A program made the translations under genes and the position numbers. 33,576 nt of DNA from an uncultured Bacilli bacterium. GTDB lineage: Bacteria; Bacillota_I; Bacilli_A; RF39; UBA660. The stretch's first letter is position 1, and each line of letters opens with the position of its first letter. Positions 5,521-16,763 of this stretch are shown here, one piece after another. The notes below the pieces were generated by a model, which saw only the letters and a list, made by a program, of their open reading frames with translations, had not been told where the DNA came from and ran no database searches. The DNA lies in contig CANQGF010000008.1 of assembly GCA_947601485.1 (NCBI GenBank), positions 1 through 33,576 on the forward strand. Direction: 5' to 3'.

Positions 5521-5606
5521 GCTCATATGGCGAAATTGGTAGACGCGATAGACTCAAAATCTATTTTCTTATAGAAGTCTCGGTTCAAGTCCGAGTATGA
5601 GCACCA
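5521..5606 (+). tRNA. tRNA-Leu (anticodon CAA, reads UUG)
   Basis: The acceptor arms GCTCATA and TATGAGC pair fully, followed by encoded ACCA. The D arm contains GGCGAAATTGGTAGACGC. The anticodon stem ATAGA/TCTAT encloses loop CTCAAAA, giving anticodon CAA. A long variable arm (class II), typical of tRNA-Leu, precedes the T arm CTCGG-TTCAAGT-CCGAG. It is 86 bases long with CCA encoded. Confidence 0.96.
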
Positions 5607-5687: not shown

Positions 5688-7259
5688 ATGCCAAAGATTA
5701 ATCAAAATTATGATTATTATAATGTTAAAAAAATAAATGATTTAAATGAATTATTAAAATTACATTTAAATAGTAAGATAGCTTTTTCTTATCAAGAAAA
5801 TGGTATAGTTATCAAAAAAACATATCAAGATTTTAATGATGATGTTACTAAATTAAGTAAATATTTTGCTAAAAATTATAAAAATAAACATATCGCTATA
5901 ATAAGTGAAAATAGTTATAATTATATTGTTACGTTTTTTTCTATTATTTTAAGTGGTAATGTTTGTGTTGTTATTGATAAAGATTTAGAAAAAGAATTAA
6001 TAAAGAAATTACTAAAAAATAGTGATACGAAAATTGTTTATTACTCATTTAACTATTGTCCATTTATTAAAGATATGAAATTAACTTCCTATCCTTTGGA
6101 AAATATTCAAGAATATATTAATTTAGGTTTAAATATTGATAAAGAATTACCTTTAACTAATAAAAATAAAGATGCAGTTATCTTTTTTACCTCTGGTACA
6201 ACTGGCGCTAATAAAGCAGTTGTTTTATCCCAAGAAAATATTGCTTCAGATATTTATGGGGCCTCATCTTTGTTTGAACCTAGTGGCTCAGTAGTTAGTT
6301 TCCTTCCTTTTCATCATGCTTTTGGTCTTATTACTGGTATTTTAATGCCTTATTACTATGGCGTAGAAGTATATCTTAATGATAGTTTAAAATATATTAT
6401 AAGAGATTTAAAAAATAATAAACCAAATACTATTTTTGTTGTGCCAGCTTTTATTGAAACTTTTTATAAGCAAATTTGGAAAAGCGTTAGACAAAAAAAG
6501 AAAGATAAATTATTGAAAGGAATGCTTAAATTAAGTAATTCTTTGCTTAAAATTAATCTTGATTTGCGAAAGAAATTTTTTAAAGAAATATTAGATGAAT
6601 TTGGGGGAAATCTTCAATATATTATTTGTGGCGGAGCCTATTTAGATAAAAAATACGTTAAATGGTTTAGAAGTATAGGTATCGAAATTTTAAATGGTTA
6701 TGGAATTACAGAATGTTCTCCTGTCGTGTCAGTTAATCGTAATTATTTTTATAAAGATGGTAGTATTGGCCAAGTATGTAGAGATGCTTTAGTCAAAGTT
6801 ATCGATAATGAAATTTGTATTAAAGGTAGTATAGTAATGAAAGGATACTATAAAGATAAGGAAGCAACAGAAGAAGTTATCAAAAATGGTTATTTTCATA
6901 CTGGTGATTTAGGTTATATAGATGAAGATGGTTTTCTATTTATTACGGGCCGAAAAAAGAATATTATTGTTTTAAATAATGGGGAAAATATTAGTCCTGA
7001 AGTAATTGAAAGTGAATTTTTAAAAGATCAAGCAGTTCAAGAAATAGTTGTTTATGAAGATAGCAATAAATTAATCGCTTGCATTTATCCAGCGGAAGAT
7101 TATTTAGCTAATCAAGAATATTTTGATGATTTATTGTATAAATATAATAAAGATAAACCAAAAAATCATCAAGTTGCATTAGTTAAATTGAGAACGAGTG
7201 AATTTATTAAAAATAATAATGGTAAAATATTACGTAATAAAGTAAGAGAGGAAGTATAA
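5688..7259 (+). CDS. AMP-dependent acyl ligase / acyl-ACP synthetase-like
   Basis: 523 residues, the usual length for a stand-alone adenylate-forming enzyme. Motifs in order: phosphate-binding loop FFTSGTTGANKA (about 165), FLPFHHAFG (about 206), GYGITECSPV (about 339), HTGDLGYIDEDGF (about 405), and GRKKNIIVLNNGENISPEVIE (about 425) with the hinge and C-terminal catalytic lysine region (NGKILR). It should activate a carboxylic acid with ATP and pass it to a thiol. The gene one base downstream is an acyl carrier protein, so ACP rather than CoA is the likely acceptor. The substrate is not readable; a fatty acid is favoured because an acyltransferase is in the operon. TAGGAG precedes the ATG. 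Confidence 0.85.
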   Translation: MPKINQNYDYYNVKKINDLNELLKLHLNSKIAFSYQENGIVIKKTYQDFNDDVTKLSKYFAKNYKNKHIAIISENSYNYIVTFFSIILSGNVCVVIDKDLEKELIKKLLKNSDTKIVYYSFNYCPFIKDMKLTSYPLENIQEYINLGLNIDKELPLTNKNKDAVIFFTSGTTGANKAVVLSQENIASDIYGASSLFEPSGSVVSFLPFHHAFGLITGILMPYYYGVEVYLNDSLKYIIRDLKNNKPNTIFVVPAFIETFYKQIWKSVRQKKKDKLLKGMLKLSNSLLKINLDLRKKFFKEILDEFGGNLQYIICGGAYLDKKYVKWFRSIGIEILNGYGITECSPVVSVNRNYFYKDGSIGQVCRDALVKVIDNEICIKGSIVMKGYYKDKEATEEVIKNGYFHTGDLGYIDEDGFLFITGRKKNIIVLNNGENISPEVIESEFLKDQAVQEIVVYEDSNKLIACIYPAEDYLANQEYFDDLLYKYNKDKPKNHQVALVKLRTSEFIKNNNGKILRNKVREEV

Positions 7260-7260
7260 A

Positions 7261-7488
7261 ATGAAAGAAGAAATAATTGCTTTAGTGTCAGAGGTTTTAG
7301 AAGTACCAAAGGAAAAAATTAATGAAAAAACTAATTTAGTGAGTGATTTAGATGTTGAATCATTAGATTTAGTTGATTTAATCGCTGCTTTTGAAACAAA
7401 ATATCAAATTGAAATCGCTGATAAAGATATCAAAAAATTACAAACAATCGGGGATATTATAAAATATATCGAAAGCAAAAATGTATAA
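7261..7488 (+). CDS. Acyl carrier protein
   Basis: 75 residues with the helical ACP pattern. The phosphopantetheine attachment site is Ser34 in DLDVESLDLVDL; the usual Asp before the serine is Glu here. The acidic second helix (LVDLIAAFETKYQIEI) is the normal partner-binding face. It starts one base after the ligase and overlaps the phosphopantetheinyl transferase by eight bases, so the three are surely co-expressed. Being tied to a ligase rather than to fatty-acid synthase genes, it looks like a dedicated carrier; I do not assign acpP. Confidence 0.9.
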   Translation: MKEEIIALVSEVLEVPKEKINEKTNLVSDLDVESLDLVDLIAAFETKYQIEIADKDIKKLQTIGDIIKYIESKNV

Positions 7489-7921
7489 GTTATATATTGA
7501 AAAAAATATATCATCAAAAAGCTTTTTAGAAAAAGTTTTAAAAGAGAATAATATCCATGATGAGATAGTATATAATGATTATGGCAAACCATATTTAAAA
7601 AATAATGAAATATATTTTAATATTAGTCATAGTCATAATGTTACTGTTTTAGTTATATCTGATGGTGAAGTGGGAGTAGATATTGAAAAAGTAACAATGC
7701 GAGAGAAAGTCATTGCTAAAATATGTACAGAAGAAGAAAAGAAATTAATTAAAAGTGCGGAAGATTTCACTTTATTATGGGTTAAAAAAGAAAGTTATGT
7801 AAAATATTTAGGCCTAGGACTTGCCTATAATTTACATGATGTTGATACACTTAAATTAGAGTTTATCACTATGCAATATGAAGATTATTATATTGCTATT
7901 TATGGAACTAATTTAAACTAA
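7481..7921 (+). CDS. 4'-phosphopantetheinyl transferase, Sfp-like (short)
   Basis: 146 residues. Conserved motifs are in order: GKPYL (about 36), FNISHS (about 48), VGVDIEKV (about 64, with metal-binding Asp and Glu) and LLWVKKESYVKYLGLGL (about 105, WxxKES). It transfers phosphopantetheine from CoA to the serine of a carrier protein, most simply the ACP it overlaps. It is shorter than Sfp (about 224 residues) because the N-terminal part is reduced; the motif core is complete. It starts inside the acp stop region (ATGTATAA), consistent with translational coupling. Confidence 0.85.
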   Translation: MYKLYIEKNISSKSFLEKVLKENNIHDEIVYNDYGKPYLKNNEIYFNISHSHNVTVLVISDGEVGVDIEKVTMREKVIAKICTEEEKKLIKSAEDFTLLWVKKESYVKYLGLGLAYNLHDVDTLKLEFITMQYEDYYIAIYGTNLN

Positions 7922-7933
7922 AGGAATGATAAT

Positions 7934-8758
7934 ATGAATTTATTATATTGTGGTGATGCCAATATTTTAGATGGTTTAATTATATCAGTATTATCTATTT
8001 TAAAAAATACTAAAGAAGTTGTTCATGTTTATGTGTTAACTATGAAATATCAAAATGAAAATAAAATTTATGAACCATTGAAAATAGAAAATATAGAAAT
8101 TCTTAATGAAATAGTTAAGGAAAAAAATCAAAATAATTTTATTAAATTAATTGATATAACTGAAGAAGTAAATAAATCATTACCAGTAGCAAATATTGAT
8201 ACTTTTTTTACTCCTTATTGTATGCTTAGATTATATGCTGATTTAGTTAATGAGATACCTGATAAAATTCTTTATTTAGATAATGATGTTGTAGCTTTAA
8301 AAGACCCGATGAAATTATACCAAATTGATAATTCTAACTATGAATTAGTTGGGGTTTTAGATTATTATGGAAGTCATATTTATAAAAAGAAACCTTTAAA
8401 AAAAGAATATCTTAATTCAGGCGTGTTACTTTTAAATATGCCAATGATTAAGAAAACAGGGCTATTTTCTAAATCGCGTCTTTTATGTCAAAATCGAAAA
8501 ATGCTTTTACCTGATCAATCAGCCCTTAATTGGTATGTCAAAAAGAAATTAATTGTGCCAAGAATTTATAATGAACAAAAGGAAGAAGATAATGAAACAG
8601 TTTTTAGACATTTTACTACGACCTTTAAATTTTGGCCTACCATTAAAAAACAAACTATAAAACCTTGGCAAATTACAGAACTTCATGATATATTAAATAT
8701 ACACTCATTTGATGATATATTAGATGAATATATTTTAATTAAGGAAAGGATGAATTAA
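7934..8758 (+). CDS. Glycosyltransferase family 8
   Basis: 274 residues. The GT8 hallmarks are clear: an N-terminal nucleotide-binding strand (LLYCGDANILDGL), the metal-binding DxD as YLDNDVVAL (about residue 115), LNSGVLLLNM (about 157) and PDQSALNW (about 195). GT8 enzymes are retaining transferases that use UDP-glucose or UDP-galactose, often in LPS, teichoic acid or glycoprotein synthesis; the acceptor is unknown. No membrane segment is present. It overlaps the next GT8 gene by one base (TAATG). Its place in an acyl-transfer operon suggests a lipid or lipid-linked acceptor. Confidence 0.88.
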   Translation: MNLLYCGDANILDGLIISVLSILKNTKEVVHVYVLTMKYQNENKIYEPLKIENIEILNEIVKEKNQNNFIKLIDITEEVNKSLPVANIDTFFTPYCMLRLYADLVNEIPDKILYLDNDVVALKDPMKLYQIDNSNYELVGVLDYYGSHIYKKKPLKKEYLNSGVLLLNMPMIKKTGLFSKSRLLCQNRKMLLPDQSALNWYVKKKLIVPRIYNEQKEEDNETVFRHFTTTFKFWPTIKKQTIKPWQITELHDILNIHSFDDILDEYILIKERMN

Positions 8759-9711
8759 TGAAAGAAATAATTCCTATTTTTTTTACGATAGATAAAGATT
8801 ATGCTCCTTATTTATCTGTTGCTATTGCATCATTGATTGATAATGCCTCTAAAGAATATAATTATAATATTCATGTCGTTTATGAATCAATTACAGAAGA
8901 CGCAATTAAAAAATTAAAAACTTTAGAAAAAGATAATGTCAAAATATTTTTTAATGAAATGAAAAAAGGATTAGAAAGTATTACTAATCGTAAAGAAAAT
9001 TTACTTCGGACTGATTTTTTTACTTTAACTATTTATTTTAGAATATTCATTCCTTTTATGTTTAAAGAATATGATAAAGCAATTTATATTGATAGTGATA
9101 CTTGTATTCCAGGTGATATATCTGAATTATATAACTATGATTTAAAAGATAATTTATTTGGTGGTTGTACGGATATATCATGTCAAGATAATCCGATATT
9201 ATGTGAGTATTTTAGATTAAATGCAGGAGCTAGTATTAAAGAATATATTAATTCTGGTGTTCTTTTAATGAATATGAAAAAATTAAGAGAAGTAGATTTT
9301 GAGAATCACTTTTTATATTTATTAAATAAATATCATTTTGACACCGTATGTCCCGATCAAGATTATATTAATGCCATGGCTTATGGTAAAATATTACATT
9401 TGCCTAATGAATGGGACGCAATGCCTACCAATGGAAATTTAGTTTTTACAAATCCTAAAATAGTTCATTATAACTTATTTTTTAAACCTTGGCATTATGA
9501 TAATGTTGATTATGAAGAATATTTTTGGAAGTACGCTAATAATTCTTTATTTAAAGATGATATATTAAAAGAAAAAGAGAATTTTACAATAGAAAAACAA
9601 GAAGCTGATAAAAAAGCTTTAGATAATTTAGTTTCTAGAGCATCAGAAATTATGAATAATGAAATTACTTTTAAGAAGGTATTTGAAAGTGGTTTAGAAA
9701 AAAGATTTTAG
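8758..9711 (+). CDS. Glycosyltransferase family 8 (second)
   Basis: 317 residues. It opens with IPIFFTIDKDYAPYLSVAI. DxD is YIDSDTCIPGDI (about residue 115), then GGCTDIS, YINSGVLLMNMKKL (about 162), CPDQDYINAM (about 198), LPNEWDAM and HYNLFFKPWHY (about 240, with the His/Lys diphosphate contacts typical of GT8). The C-terminal 60 residues are a charged helical extension. It differs clearly from the upstream paralogue, so two successive sugar additions are plausible. A GGGGT sequence for the next gene follows the stop at once. Confidence 0.88.
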   Translation: MKEIIPIFFTIDKDYAPYLSVAIASLIDNASKEYNYNIHVVYESITEDAIKKLKTLEKDNVKIFFNEMKKGLESITNRKENLLRTDFFTLTIYFRIFIPFMFKEYDKAIYIDSDTCIPGDISELYNYDLKDNLFGGCTDISCQDNPILCEYFRLNAGASIKEYINSGVLLMNMKKLREVDFENHFLYLLNKYHFDTVCPDQDYINAMAYGKILHLPNEWDAMPTNGNLVFTNPKIVHYNLFFKPWHYDNVDYEEYFWKYANNSLFKDDILKEKENFTIEKQEADKKALDNLVSRASEIMNNEITFKKVFESGLEKRF

Positions 9712-9720
9712 GGGTAAAGT

Positions 9721-10584
9721 ATGGTTATAGGTGGAAGTAAAAAAGAAGTTATTAAAAATATTGAAGAAAATATTAAAAATAATGAATTAAATAAAAAAGT
9801 TGAAGTTAATGATCCCAATTTAAGTGATGAAGAAAAAGAGGTAATTTTAAAAAAATTTTATGATAGTAAAAAACATAAATTAATCTATTTTTTTAAAAAT
9901 CATTTTGCTTATCTTTTTGTAGATGTTTTAGGAATTAAATTAAATAAATCAATTACTATTGAAGGTTTAGAAAATCTTGAAGGCATTAAAAGCGGTGCCA
10001 TAATAACAAGCAATCATTTTAATCCTTTAGACAATATGGCAATTAGAAAAATGATAAAAAAATGGAGTCATAAAAATATTTATATTGTCATTCAAGATAC
10101 TAATTTAGCTATGCCTGGATTTATTGGCTATTTAATGAATAATTTAAACAATATTCCAATATTTAAGGGTCCTAATTACATTATAAAAACGTTTAAGCCA
10201 GAGTTAAAAAGGATATTAGATAAAAATAATTATGTTTTAATTTATCCAGAAGAAGAAATGTGGTTTAATTATCGTAAGCCTCGCCCTTGTAAACGTGGTG
10301 CTTATGAGTTTGCTAGTGAAAATAATGTACCAGTTATTTCTTGCTTTGTCGAAATTAAAGATAAAGATGAAGATGATAATGAGGAATTTAGAGAAGTGGA
10401 ATATATTGTTCATGTTTTAAAACCTATTTATCCTGATAAAAATAAATCAATAAAAGAAAATAGTAAATGGATGGCTATAACTGATTATGAACAAAAAAAA
10501 GAATGTTATGAAAAAGTTTATCATCAAAAATTAAATTATACTTTTTCTTTAGATGATATTGCTGGTTATAAAAAGGAAGATTAA
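9721..10584 (+). CDS. PlsC-type acyltransferase
   Basis: 287 residues. The canonical acyltransferase motif HX4D is present as SNHFNPLDNM (His99, Asp104), with motif III as IYPEEEMW and a downstream KRGAYEFA block that contacts the glycerophosphate or acyl thioester. A charged N-terminal extension of about 50 residues precedes the domain, with a hydrophobic segment near residues 54-72. It should transfer an acyl chain to a hydroxyl, as in lysophosphatidate or glycolipid acylation. It is the last gene of the operon; its final codons form one arm of a shared terminator with the convergent gene. Confidence 0.82.
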   Translation: MVIGGSKKEVIKNIEENIKNNELNKKVEVNDPNLSDEEKEVILKKFYDSKKHKLIYFFKNHFAYLFVDVLGIKLNKSITIEGLENLEGIKSGAIITSNHFNPLDNMAIRKMIKKWSHKNIYIVIQDTNLAMPGFIGYLMNNLNNIPIFKGPNYIIKTFKPELKRILDKNNYVLIYPEEEMWFNYRKPRPCKRGAYEFASENNVPVISCFVEIKDKDEDDNEEFREVEYIVHVLKPIYPDKNKSIKENSKWMAITDYEQKKECYEKVYHQKLNYTFSLDDIAGYKKED

Positions 10585-10602
10585 TTAACTATCTTTCTTT
10601 TT
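10570..10602. terminator. Bidirectional terminator made of two convergent gene ends
   Basis: AAAAAGGAAGAT (10570-10581) and ATCTTTCTTTTT (10591-10602) pair over 12 bases with one G-U. The loop contains both stop codons: TAA of the plus-strand gene (10582-10584) and the reverse TAA of the minus-strand gene (10585-10587). Both arms are coding (KKED on plus, KKKD on minus). Confidence 0.65.
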
Positions 10603-11337
10603 ATATTTTATATATTCGTAATTATTTAATTTACTTCTTTCAACCATTGTTTTATATACTTGATCATGTAATAATTTTATATTTTCTTTTTTAGTTAAAG
10701 TTTCATTGCTTTCGAATGGTCCATCAATATAAATGGTTACTTTAGGCTTTTTAAATAATTTAGATTTAGTATAAGTGGTCGTGGCAACAAAAACTTTTTT
10801 CTTATTTTCGACAGGGTAATGAAATGATACTAGGGGATAGTCTCTAATAAAAGTAGCATAAGGCCACAAATGAGCTTCGGGATAAATAATGATGGGTTTA
10901 TTAGAACGCTTCTTAATCGCATCTTTAAATTTTAGCATATCATGTATATTATCTGGAATTGGTAATGCCCCCGCGATAGGAAGAATTTTTCCAATAATGG
11001 GGATACCTAGATTAGATGGTGAACAGATAAGATAAGGATGATGGGGAAAACAAATAATAAAAGGGTTAAAAACATCACCGAGCATTTGGGTATGATTGCT
11101 ATATAAAAAATAACCTTTTTCTTTTTTTAAAATTTTTTTATTTTTAATAGTAACATGTAAAAATAATTTAGTATAAATTAAAGAAAAAATTAAAACTATA
11201 AGATAGATAAAAAAAGCCGCTATTTGATAAAATGGATTATCGTGAATCCAAATGAAATCTTTTTTTAATTTATAGTCTTGTTTTTTAGTTTCTATAAAGT
11301 CTTCGTCTTCGGATTGATAGTAATAAATTTTCTTCAT
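10585..11337 (-). CDS. PlsC-like acyltransferase with atypical HX5D motif
   Basis: 250 residues. Transmembrane segments lie at about residues 37-59. The acyltransferase box reads SNHTQMLGD: His82 and Asp88 are separated by five residues instead of the usual four. Motif III is IYPEAHLWPY, and a substrate-binding region PSNLGIPIIGKILPIAGALPIP follows the box. It is probably a membrane lipid acyltransferase, or a relative with altered chemistry. AAGGAGG precedes the ATG and an extended -10 lies upstream. It converges on the PlsC gene of the acyl operon with no bases between the stops. Confidence 0.72.
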   Translation of the reverse strand: MKKIYYYQSEDEDFIETKKQDYKLKKDFIWIHDNPFYQIAAFFIYLIVLIFSLIYTKLFLHVTIKNKKILKKEKGYFLYSNHTQMLGDVFNPFIICFPHHPYLICSPSNLGIPIIGKILPIAGALPIPDNIHDMLKFKDAIKKRSNKPIIIYPEAHLWPYATFIRDYPLVSFHYPVENKKKVFVATTTYTKSKLFKKPKVTIYIDGPFESNETLTKKENIKLLHDQVYKTMVERSKLNNYEYIKYKKKDS

Positions 11338-12921: not shown

Positions 12922-12946
12922 AAAAGCTTTAAATCTAAAGCTTTTT
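12921..12946. terminator. Bidirectional terminator between convergent genes
   Basis: AAAAAGCTTTA (12921-12931), loop AATC and TAAAGCTTTTT (12936-12946) form a perfect 11-bp stem with T runs on both strands. It overlaps the last base of the plus-strand stop. The minus-strand sortase stop (TAG, 12937-12935) lies at the loop edge, so its last codons form one arm. Confidence 0.85.
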
Positions 12947-13501
12947 TAAATGGGCTATAACAATTAACTGTTGTTTTTTATTTTTACAGGTTGTTAATAC
13001 TAGTGTTTTTTCATTTTGTTTTGGTATATTTATTTGACCAGTTTTAGAAACATTATAAATTTCTTTAACTTCATATTCATACAAATTATTTTGATAATAA
13101 ATATTTATATCATCATTTATAGCTAATTTATGTAAATTTTTAAAATAGGCATTAATACCATTACCAGAATGAGATGCAATTACTAAAATATTATTTTCTT
13201 GATCTGGCATAGTAGATCCTTTTAATACTTGTATATTTTTATTAACTTTATTCAATTTATTAGAAATATCATAAAATCCTTTTTTAATTTCTAATTTAGG
13301 AATTTCTAATATACCTAAATAATTATCAGTTTGTTTAATATTTTCATTAATATCTTTATTTTTTACATTTACTTTGGTAATAAAATAATTTTCTACTAAT
13401 TTATTATCATACTTTATTTTATAAAAACTATATAAATAATATGTTGTAAATAATAATATAGCAATAACCAAAATAAATTTACTAATTATTCTTTTTTTCA
13501 T
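12935..13501 (-). CDS. Sortase, Arg-less variant
   Basis: 188 residues. An N-terminal membrane anchor (residues 7-27) is followed by the sortase barrel: GILEIPKLEI, the catalytic His111 in IASHSGNG, 'LHKLAINDDINIYY' and the catalytic Cys172 in LVLTTC. The third catalytic residue, an arginine six to eight positions after the cysteine in known sortases, is missing: the segment is KNKKQQLIVIA. The only arginine in the protein is Arg4, before the membrane anchor. The gene overlaps the end of the surface-protein gene by 20 bases, so that protein is the likely substrate. The class is uncertain (B or D-like). Confidence 0.82.
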   Translation of the reverse strand: MKKRIISKFILVIAILLFTTYYLYSFYKIKYDNKLVENYFITKVNVKNKDINENIKQTDNYLGILEIPKLEIKKGFYDISNKLNKVNKNIQVLKGSTMPDQENNILVIASHSGNGINAYFKNLHKLAINDDINIYYQNNLYEYEVKEIYNVSKTGQINIPKQNEKTLVLTTCKNKKQQLIVIAHLKKL

Positions 13502-16500
13502 AAACTATCAAATAACTTAAAATACTTAGAACAATAACTATAATATTAATAATATTATCTAAATTACTATAAGTATCAGGTACATCATAGATAAGTTCTT
13601 CTGTAAGAACTTTTTTATCTACCATTTCTAGATTTACTTCTGTATTATTATCTTTAATTTCAAAATATAGTTTAGTATTATTTAAAGAATATCCTTCTGG
13701 TGCCATCGTTTCAATTAAATAATATTTTCCTATAAATAAATTATCTAGTGTAATATTTCCTGATTCATTGGTTAAGCCTTCATATATTAAAGTGGCCTTT
13801 TCTTCATTATAAGTATAGTAATAAATAGCAATTTTAGCATTTGCTAGTAATTCATTATTATCATCCTTTTTAGTAAAGGTTAATTTCCCTTTTTGTAAAT
13901 AATTTTTAAGATTTAATGTTTCACTTACTGTCATGGTATATTGGTCTTTATAAGCTAAAGTTATATAATATTTTTCTTTATCTAAAACATAATTATCTAA
14001 TGTCTTTTTTTCAATTACATAATAATCACCCAAATATAAATCACTGATTTTTATAGTTCCATTAATAGTATTATATGTTCCAATTAGGGTATCTTTTTTA
14101 AAAATTAAAGTGCCATCACCACTGTAAATATTTTTGGCGGCATATAGGCTAAAAGCTACATCATTTAGACTTACATTTTCATAATTAAAGGAATTATCTT
14201 TTAATACTAGTTGTTCTCCAACTTTATTAATAATTATTTCTCCTTTAACTTCTTTATTTGTAAACTTAATTTCTAATATATTACCTAATTTACTATCTTT
14301 AATAAATTCAGTATTTTTATCTATAGTAAATTTTATTTTGTTTTTATTCCATAAATAGCCATTTATCTTCTGATCTATTTCTTCTAATTCATAATTTCCT
14401 CCATAAAGATAATAAGGCGTATATAAATATCCATCTTTATTAGTAGCAAATTCACAAACTGTTTCAGCATTTGGATAAGTAACATTTTGACAAATATAAG
14501 TATTAGTATCTAAATCCTTTATTTTAAATTTAATTCCTTTAAGAGGTATGGCTTTTTTAGTGTCTTCATCAATTTTAATGATTTTTATTTTTGCTTTAAC
14601 CTCATCATCATTTATTACTTTATCAACTTTTCTGGTTTTAATATTAATATCAAAACAGGGGGTATCAATATTATAATTACTGCCTTTTATTTGACAAACT
14701 TGATATGTTCCATAAGGTAAATGAATACTAGCTTTACCTTCATTATCAGTTACTAAAGTATCAATTAATTGATGATTACTTTTTAAATAAATATAAAATT
14801 CTGCACCCATTTCAGCTTCGACAATACCAAGTTTACCATTGGTTTTAGTCTTGAATAAATTAAAATCATATGACCTAATTTCTTCTTTGGAATTTATCGT
14901 AACAATTTCTTGGTTGTTTTCAATTTTTACAGAATATTTTTTCTTATCAAGTTTATATCCTAAACTTGCTTCTGTTTCTTTTATATAATAATTTCCAAAT
15001 GGTAGAAGATTCGATTTAGCATATCCTTTATCATCCGTAATGAGACGATCAACCACTTTATTTTCACTATCTAGTATTTCATAAATAGCCCCCTTTAATG
15101 AAGCATCACCTTGTGGTGTATTACCAGTATCAGCATCCACTTTATATAATTCAATATAGCCTTTGATGACTTTTTCCATAGAATTAATCTTAATTATTTC
15201 CATATCATTTTTAATAGTAACATGATAGTTATTTGAATCAATTAAATAACCTTTAGGAGCTTCTTTTTCTTTGATAGTGTATTCACCAAAAGGGAGAAGT
15301 TCTGATTTAGCATATCCTTTATCATCGGTAGTGAGGCGACCAACCACTTTATTTTCACTATCTAATATTTCATAAATAGCCCCCTTTAATGAAGCATCTC
15401 CTTGTGGTGTATTACCAGTATCAGCATCCACTTTATATAATTCAATGTAGCCTTTTATGACTTTTTCCATAGAATTAATCTTAATTATTTCCATATCATC
15501 TTTAATGGTAACATGATAGGTATTTGAATCAATTAAATAACCTTTAGGAGCTTCTTTTTCTTTGACTGTGTATTCACCAAAGGGAAGAAGCTCTGATTTA
15601 GCATATCCTTTATCATCAGTTATGAGGCGACCAACCACTTTATTTTCACTATCTAGTATTTCATAGATAGCTCCTTTTAATGAAATGCTTTGATTATCAC
15701 TCTTTTTTTGTAATTCAATGTAGCCCATTATTTTATTATTTATAAAATTAAATGATTTAGTTTCATTTTCTTCCGTTAAAGTAAATTCATATAATTTATC
15801 ATCTTTATGATAACCATCTTTAACATTTAATTCTTTAATTTTATAATTGCCATAATTAAGGCCCTCACATTTTCCATATCCTTCATCATTAGTTACAATT
15901 TGGCATACTTCTTGATTTTTATCATTATATACTCCAAAAGTAACATTTGCTAACCTTTCGCTATAGTTATCAGTTTTATATACTTCAACTGTCCCATTAA
16001 TGACTTTTACTCTTGCACCACCATAAACCGGAGAGAATGAACTAAAGTAAGCTTGTTTTTGATTGTTAGTAGAATAGAAAAATCTATTTGGATTTTTATT
16101 GCCTTTTCTTTCATAGGTTATTGTTCTAATTCCACCAGTATATGGTCTAATATAAAGTCTATTATCTTTTATATAAGCCGTTGTGCCATCACCATTACAG
16201 ATTTCATAATCATCAATAACATGATTTTCATCTTCAAAAAATACTTCTTCATTAAGAAGGGCAGTTTTAGTATCATAGTTAAATGAAGGTCGTGTATGGT
16301 GAATTTCAATTAATCTTAAAATCTCATTTTTTTCTTTACTTAAATCAATATAATTACCTTCACCTCCAACTTCTGTCCATACTTCATTTTGTTGACCACT
16401 TAACTTATCCCAAATAAGCATTTGAGTGGCCATTTGATACCTTAAGGTATCATGTCCTTCATAGCCATAACCATAATAAGCATAGAGTTCTATTACTTGC

Positions 16501-16763
16501 ATTATTTCCGTATCATATGGTGCCTCACTACTTTCTACATAATCAGCATCTTCACTAATTAAAACCCCTGGTTCAATACAATAGGTAGTAACTCCATCAA
16601 TCGAATAAGTATGAAGTTCACCTGATTCTGGTGCTTTACCTCCACCTCGTCGGTAAAAGTAATACTCCGTAAATTTTTCGTCCAATTTGGTGGCATAAAC
16701 CATCTTTGGACAATTAAAAATAAAAATTAAAAATAAAATTAAAAATAGAAAATATTTTTTCAT
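13482..16763 (-). CDS. Thioester-domain surface adhesin with SpaA/Cna-B repeats
   Basis: 1093 residues. A signal peptide (residues 1-25) precedes a thioester adhesion domain: Cys62 in TTYCIEPG and Gln114 in TQMLIW, the pair that forms the internal thioester in Cys-Gln adhesins. About eight prealbumin-like (SpaA/Cna-B) domains follow; several keep the Lys (VYKTD, LYKVD) and Glu (EAPKGY, MAPEGY) of isopeptide-forming folds. Domains two to four are near-identical tandem copies. The C-terminus has a sorting signal: VPDTY, a hydrophobic helix and the charged tail EKKNN. The final residue of the motif is Tyr instead of the usual Gly. The mature protein should be covalently wall-anchored. AAGGAGG precedes the ATG. 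Confidence 0.88.
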   Translation of the reverse strand: MKKYFLFLILFLIFIFNCPKMVYATKLDEKFTEYYFYRRGGGKAPESGELHTYSIDGVTTYCIEPGVLISEDADYVESSEAPYDTEIMQVIELYAYYGYGYEGHDTLRYQMATQMLIWDKLSGQQNEVWTEVGGEGNYIDLSKEKNEILRLIEIHHTRPSFNYDTKTALLNEEVFFEDENHVIDDYEICNGDGTTAYIKDNRLYIRPYTGGIRTITYERKGNKNPNRFFYSTNNQKQAYFSSFSPVYGGARVKVINGTVEVYKTDNYSERLANVTFGVYNDKNQEVCQIVTNDEGYGKCEGLNYGNYKIKELNVKDGYHKDDKLYEFTLTEENETKSFNFINNKIMGYIELQKKSDNQSISLKGAIYEILDSENKVVGRLITDDKGYAKSELLPFGEYTVKEKEAPKGYLIDSNTYHVTIKDDMEIIKINSMEKVIKGYIELYKVDADTGNTPQGDASLKGAIYEILDSENKVVGRLTTDDKGYAKSELLPFGEYTIKEKEAPKGYLIDSNNYHVTIKNDMEIIKINSMEKVIKGYIELYKVDADTGNTPQGDASLKGAIYEILDSENKVVDRLITDDKGYAKSNLLPFGNYYIKETEASLGYKLDKKKYSVKIENNQEIVTINSKEEIRSYDFNLFKTKTNGKLGIVEAEMGAEFYIYLKSNHQLIDTLVTDNEGKASIHLPYGTYQVCQIKGSNYNIDTPCFDINIKTRKVDKVINDDEVKAKIKIIKIDEDTKKAIPLKGIKFKIKDLDTNTYICQNVTYPNAETVCEFATNKDGYLYTPYYLYGGNYELEEIDQKINGYLWNKNKIKFTIDKNTEFIKDSKLGNILEIKFTNKEVKGEIIINKVGEQLVLKDNSFNYENVSLNDVAFSLYAAKNIYSGDGTLIFKKDTLIGTYNTINGTIKISDLYLGDYYVIEKKTLDNYVLDKEKYYITLAYKDQYTMTVSETLNLKNYLQKGKLTFTKKDDNNELLANAKIAIYYYTYNEEKATLIYEGLTNESGNITLDNLFIGKYYLIETMAPEGYSLNNTKLYFEIKDNNTEVNLEMVDKKVLTEELIYDVPDTYSNLDNIINIIVIVLSILSYLIVYEKKNN
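15004..15725 (-). repeat. 291-bp tandem direct repeats within the adhesin gene
   Basis: Copies start at 15004, 15295 and 15586 at an exact 291-base period (97 codons). The first two are complete and nearly identical; the third is partial and loses the VDADTG-type linker. Each encodes one SpaA-like domain (SLKGAIYEILDSENKVV ... EAPKGYLIDSN). The exact period and high identity indicate recent duplication or gene conversion. Confidence 0.92.

Follow-up and report, generated by a model that had tools for sequence, protein, structure and literature searches.

A horizontally spread seven-gene cassette predicted to make an acylated glycolipid in Bacilli and Saccharibacteria without detectable fatty acid synthesis

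The stretch of DNA considered here (the window) comprises 33,576 nucleotides, positions 1 to 33,576 of contig CANQGF010000008.1 (C8 in our set) in assembly GCA_947601485.1. It belongs to a metagenome-assembled genome (MAG; G000) of an uncultured Bacilli bacterium, 1.37 Mb in size, 95% complete and about 25% GC. Between 5688 and 10584 lie six consecutive forward-strand genes, spaced by +1, -8, +12, -1 and +9 bases. They encode an AMP-forming acyl ligase, proposed to be an acyl-ACP (acyl carrier protein) synthetase (LIG, 5688..7259, 523 amino acids [aa]; PF00501, 1.3e-51), a stand-alone type II ACP (7261..7488, 75 aa; PF00550, PP-binding, 2e-13, and NF002148), a short Sfp-type 4'-phosphopantetheinyl transferase (PPTase, 7481..7921, 146 aa; PF01648, ACPS, 4e-13), two glycosyltransferases of family 8, the LgtC-like GT8a (7934..8758, 274 aa; PF01501, 4e-17) and GT8b (8758..9711, 317 aa; PF01501, 2.5e-47), and a PlsC/LPLAT-type acyltransferase with an N-terminal extension and an H(X)4D motif (9721..10584, 287 aa; PF01553, 4e-13). 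On the reverse strand, with zero gap to the end of the PlsC gene, lies the convergent gene of a second LPLAT-fold acyltransferase, AT2 (10585..11337, 250 aa), recognised by its fold model and by homologues that match PF01553.

An earlier note on this DNA had described the six forward-strand genes as a tightly packed operon with intact catalytic motifs. Open reading frames and Pfam matches agree with the stated families for each gene, and the ACP serine, the SGTTG and HxFG motifs of the ligase, the DxD of the GT8 enzymes and the H/D and P-E residues of the acyltransferase are all conserved. The membership list was right as far as it went, but it overlooked AT2, a conserved seventh member whose gene is part of almost every complete locus.

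The motifs of the ligase fit a fatty acid or another non-amino acid as its substrate. Counted in 37 operon homologues each of ligase and ACP, SGTTG is present in 37/37 ligases and HxFG, the A4 motif of acyl ligases, in 36/37. A GYGITE-type motif is also present, and K513 near the C-terminus is invariant. The amino-acid A4 motif FDxS was found in 0/37, unlike in a DltA-like enzyme of the same lineage, which carries FDVS. These motifs argue against an amino acid, and an amino-acid or Dlt reading of the ligase was rejected on their account; a ligase pocket fitting an amino acid was one of the findings that the earlier note had named as refuting its proposal. The best NCBIfam matches of the ligase are long-chain fatty-acid ligases.

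The ACP matches the model NF002148 with 72.1 bits (cut-off 71), and this makes it a type II protein of the fatty acid synthesis (FAS) type and not a carrier of nonribosomal peptide synthetases (NRPSs), the grouping that the earlier note had named together with an amino-acid pocket as refuting its proposal. Its attachment serine is invariant (37/37), and its gene is adjacent to that of the ligase in complete cassette loci. It is the sole PF00550 match in the genome of the window and in the eight Saccharibacteria tested, while eight non-carriers tested gave no PF00550 match. The operon PPTase is likewise the sole PF01648 match in the window's genome. Genome-wide searches found a PPTase in 16/17 carriers and in 0/8 non-carriers; the gene is missing from the loci of many relatives, where it is mostly encoded elsewhere in the genome.

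As for the transferases, the motif LD[NTS]D occurs in 32/32 homologues of GT8a and DxD in 32/33 homologues of GT8b, whose nearest solved structures are WbbM (2e-36) and LgtC (9e-30). In the operon PlsC, H99 and D104 of the H(X)4D motif are invariant in 24 sequences. In AT2, H82 and D88 are invariant in 27 sequences, corresponding to an H(X)5D spacing instead of the canonical one, and the P-E positions are invariant in the respective alignments of both proteins. The AT2 of the window has no Pfam or NCBIfam match, and a sequence search of the PDB gave chance matches only. Judging by AlphaFold2 models, both acyltransferases have the LPLAT fold. The PlsC model (pLDDT 86.8) is tied between plastidial glycerol-3-phosphate acyltransferase (GPAT) and T. 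maritima PlsC (Z 12.4-12.1), and the AT2 model (pLDDT 89.7) matches PlsC of T. maritima (5kym) with a VIA-align Z of 16.2 and a root mean square deviation of 4.4 over 194 residues.

A scan of 84,980 species genomes yielded further loci in Bacilli MAGs from rabbit gut and rumen and in MAGs named Candidatus Saccharibacteria. As the gene set recurs in dozens of loci at protein identities of 36-85%, in two main arrangements, it is not a product of chance; LIG, GT8a, GT8b, PlsC and AT2 are found together in 31 loci, the window included. Within the family of the window the ligase occurs at 59-100% identity in 6/145 genomes, the next best matches being paralogues of about 35%. The five other family carriers have the same set at one locus (that of G082 without the PPTase), either collinear or with the ligase-ACP-PPTase module divergent from or convergent with the GT8a-GT8b-PlsC module. 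Where the modules are collinear or divergent, AT2 and PlsC point towards each other, with an unrelated gene between the two in G007; in G066 AT2 lies downstream of PlsC on the same strand. The earlier note had named a gene order not conserved in relatives as refuting its proposal, and this test did not refute it: the gene set is kept, even across a phylum boundary, although the position of the two sub-modules relative to each other differs in several genera. At the G066 locus the ligase has 63% identity, but the GT8, PlsC and AT2 proteins just 36-40%; the two modules therefore have partly separate histories. No further gene (transporter, flippase, polymerase or acceptor protein) is common to the loci of both phyla.

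More distant ligases (27-50% identity), from Lachnospiraceae and further Clostridia, are often still accompanied by the ACP, without the glycosyl- and acyl-transfer genes. In two Clostridia loci, that of E. bolteae (L078) and L102, the ligase-ACP pair directly adjoins NRPSs whose N-terminal domain is a condensation domain, a setting in which a pair that loads fatty acyl groups would be expected.

The cassette is patchy within the order, being present in about 5% of 385 genomes surveyed. With thresholds chosen after the gap in scores had been seen (at least 44 bits for a FAS-type ACP, at least 250 bits for a strong AT2), a stand-alone FAS-type ACP was found in 21 genomes, a strong AT2 in 20 and both in 19 (Fisher p 6e-29); weaker ACP matches include DltC-like ones. 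The window's own genus, with about 20 genomes, contains 10 strong carriers, and about half of its members lack AT2. One genome of this genus shows a weak AT2 match (G558:C10:2714-3118, E 3.4e-4) broken by three TGA codons and one TAA codon, perhaps a decayed copy.

The carriers named Saccharibacteria have genomes of 0.4-1.0 Mb, and their records come from several independent studies. The sampled phylum of one genome, G145, consists of small genomes, with high-scoring GT8a in 3/287. Six Saccharibacteria loci have flanking genes in common. The GC content of their operons (0.37-0.49) matches that of their own flanks and not that of the Bacilli operons (0.23-0.27), and this speaks against mis-binning. 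An attempt at 16S typing recovered rRNA fragments from G149 and G007 alone, too few for the purpose, and the assignment to Saccharibacteria rests on record titles, small genomes, conserved flanks and composition. In the ligase tree these carriers form two clades among the Bacilli, with Clostridia outside; an approximately unbiased test rejects a single Saccharibacteria clade marginally (p 0.0475, borderline). We conclude that the cassette has been transferred between phyla, with the number of transfers (one or two) and their direction unsettled. At one Saccharibacteria locus (L084, 10604-11274), ligase, ACP and PPTase genes lie amid housekeeping genes without the GT8/PlsC/AT2 module.

The lipid metabolism of the hosts provides the context for these genes. 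The family of the window fits the FAS-less Bacilli order RF39, for which use of exogenous fatty acids by a Fak-PlsX-PlsY route has been proposed (PMC6784871). The genomes compared are mostly MAGs, so that absence here means no detectable match, and hidden Markov model searches miss remote enzymes. The ketoacyl synthase of FAS II (PF00109) is absent from the window's genome, in agreement with the missing fab genes predicted in the earlier note. Among 27 genomes searched there were two single matches, one in G007 and one in G082, both within polyketide synthase (PKS)-like clusters and beside a ligase paralogue. PlsX and PlsY were each found in 0/25 genomes, with eight control genomes positive in each search, and neither was found in the 17 cassette carriers tested. 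DegV/FakB was detected in none of 14 family genomes tested, but it was found in some Saccharibacteria and in G154. The window's genome lacks a match to FakB, PlsX and PlsY alike. Six near-complete genomes of the family (G001, G002, G004, G005, G036 and G094) have no PF01553, PlsY or PlsX match, that is, no recognisable glycerolipid acyltransferase.

Outside the cassette, the carriers looked at hold a separate acyl-CoA-ligase-like gene accompanied by one or two short PlsC genes (L123, G099:C2; L124, G066:C26; L129, G007:C12; L121-L122 in the window's genome). As PlsX, PlsY and FakB are absent from these genomes, this set is likely the phospholipid route and acyl-CoA-based. Two other clusters that contain a ligase gene were noted. 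One, PKS-like and occurring in a FAS-less family (L036, G082:C6; L037, G007:C1; L038, G120:C104), contains the ligase paralogue of about 35% identity, a ketoacyl synthase, an acyltransferase, and carboxylase-like and BirA-like proteins. The other is Dlt-like (L127, G066:C1:5000-13000; L128, G088:C7:36000-42500) and encodes a DltA-like ligase, a pyridoxal phosphate-dependent decarboxylase-like protein, a DltC-like ACP, an MBOAT protein and one more protein; a decarboxylase inserted in a dlt-type operon is unusual.

Based on these observations, we suggest, with a probability of roughly two in three, that the seven genes form a cassette, accessory and spread by horizontal transfer, whose enzymes turn scavenged fatty acids into an acylated glycolipid in FAS-less bacteria. 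In this pathway the PPTase would turn the cassette ACP into holo-ACP, and the ligase would adenylate a free fatty acid with ATP and load it onto this ACP. PlsC and AT2 would then move two acyl chains from acyl-ACP onto a glycerol- or sugar-based acceptor, and two sugars would be attached by the two GT8 enzymes, either ahead of the acylations or following them. The product would be a diglycosyl lipid of the surface or membrane, probably with two acyl chains. From gene content and motifs we infer the specificity of the ligase for this ACP and its use of a fatty acid, and likewise the acceptor, the sugars, the product and the sequence of the reactions. The earlier note had already proposed a self-contained route in which a free acid is loaded onto its own carrier and used for an acylated glycan or glycolipid, and the gene set, the motifs and the missing ketoacyl synthase lend this idea support at the sequence level. 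Since the cassette ACP is the sole FAS-type ACP of the window's genome, and no ketoacyl synthase, PlsX, PlsY or FakB was found there, the cassette brings its own ACP, and usually also a PPTase, into FAS-less lineages. Its patchiness within one genus, its own ACP and PPTase, and the presence of the other acyl-CoA-ligase/PlsC set mark it as accessory and self-contained.

Several points weigh against this interpretation. The ligase scores below every NCBIfam cut-off, and the acid could therefore be another carboxylate. The closest solved relative of neither GT8 enzyme is an established diacylglycerol glycosyltransferase, and GT8 acceptors cannot be read from sequence. Some loci lack the PPTase, and none was found in genome G149. 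Finally, because carriers hold the separate acyl-CoA-ligase/PlsC set, the dependence of the operon acyltransferases on acyl-ACP is an assumption. More tentatively, and at less than even odds, the cassette may be a mobile, self-sufficient acyl-ACP pathway with an activating enzyme, a carrier and mostly also a PPTase of its own. Bacteria that have completely lost both FAS and ACP, reduced-genome Bacilli as well as Saccharibacteria, would use it to make a new membrane or surface glycolipid de novo out of fatty acids of the host, and in Saccharibacteria it may be the only recognisable route of glycerolipid acylation.

The best surviving alternative, although unlikely, is membrane phospholipid supply: the ligase and ACP would replace the missing Fak/PlsX route, PlsC and AT2 would make phosphatidic acid, and the GT8 genes would serve a neighbouring glycan function. 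The lack of detectable PlsX, PlsY and FakB in the family agrees with this, as does the finding that the sole PF01553 matches of the Saccharibacteria carriers are the operon's own; two acyltransferases are enough for two acylations, and the models of both resemble PlsC and GPAT. However, the cassette is patchy in the window's genus and hence dispensable there, the carriers looked at hold the other acyl-CoA ligase with its PlsC genes, and both GT8 genes remain with PlsC through re-arrangement and inter-phylum transfer.

It is improbable that the product is an acylated surface polysaccharide or glycoprotein, with a glycan assembled by the GT8 enzymes on a wall polymer or protein and decorated by the acyltransferases, in place of a free membrane glycolipid. 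Surface glycans are common GT8 products, GT8b is closest to WbbM and LgtC, and sortase/SpaA-like genes lie about 2.4 kb downstream in the window; yet the latter do not recur at other loci, and the cassette has no conserved companion gene for a transporter, a polymerase or an acceptor protein. Moreover, lipids or glycolipids at the inner face of the membrane are the usual substrates of LPLAT enzymes. Supply of starters to a lipopeptide or polyketide assembly line, suggested by the NRPS neighbours in E. bolteae and L102 and by the ligase paralogue within the PKS-like cluster of G007, G082 and G120, is already disfavoured and very improbable, as the window's genome has no ketoacyl synthase and no multi-carrier NRPS match (a single PF00550), and the conserved partners are glycosyl- and acyl-transfer genes.

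The surroundings of the cassette can be described briefly. A promoter and terminator scan found promoter-like sites no more often than in shuffled sequences and no clear terminator. About 80 bases upstream, at the left edge and outside the cassette, ARAGORN places a forward-strand tRNA-Leu (caa) at 5521..5606. Three loci from two phyla have such a gene nearby (5521-5606 in the window, 3126-3212 in L052 and 4255-4341 in L074), possibly by chance, and since it was seen near the cassette in these three only, tRNA-Leu as a general integration site was rejected. No relatives of the operon PlsC were found among viral contigs, and viral carriage was likewise rejected. On the reverse strand at 12935-16763 of the window, a sortase gene stands beside that of a SpaA/pilin-like protein of 1093 aa whose internal repeats are almost identical.

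The question addressed by these findings is how FAS-less uncultured gut bacteria make lipids: the cassette offers a concrete, expressible alternative of seven genes to the Fak route for one lipid class. Through gene transfer it connects two phyla of reduced gut bacteria, and it makes their lipid diet testable, with carriers and non-carriers within one genus as a natural control. If our interpretation is true, carriers should draw on free fatty acids to make a definable glycolipid, a point that matters for culturing them.

The earlier note knew of no named system with this exact set, and no paper describing it was found in the literature searches made. Known systems share parts of it. The Fak-PlsX-PlsY route answers the same physiological problem, the use of scavenged fatty acids, but neither the window's genome nor the sample of its family gave a match to FakB, PlsX or PlsY. 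PatA, which acts on mycobacterial phosphatidylinositol mannosides, shows an LPLAT fold working on a glycolipid; the cassette models match it at Z 10-11.5, but at about 7-9% identity, and PlsC/GPAT are no more distant than PatA from AT2 and the operon PlsC. E. coli Aas and V. harveyi AasS catalyse the reaction proposed here, of fatty acid, ATP and holo-ACP, and Aas also joins a ligase with an acyltransferase. However, they recycle acids into the housekeeping AcpP pool, whereas the cassette ACP is encoded with its ligase, and the scores of this ligase against Aas-type models lie far below cut-off.

The nearest principle is that of AasR of Rhodobacteria sphingolipid synthesis, which acylates only its partner AcpR and neither CoA nor the housekeeping ACP, and which proves that a ligase can serve a single ACP of its own and a single lipid (PMC9386255). 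There the consumer is serine palmitoyltransferase, and the hosts also hold a housekeeping AcpP (PMC9386255). As no other family, serine palmitoyltransferase included, recurs across the loci of both phyla, the cassette is not a member of that sphingolipid system. It differs from AasR/AcpR in its two GT8 enzymes, two LPLATs and PPTase, and in residing in genomes without another FAS-type ACP; it resembles that pair in that the genes of the ligase and of a stand-alone ACP are adjacent and clustered with those of a lipid pathway, here the two GT8 and two LPLAT genes of the proposed route, and in that a ligase would charge a carrier reserved for it so as to direct free fatty acid into one particular lipid.

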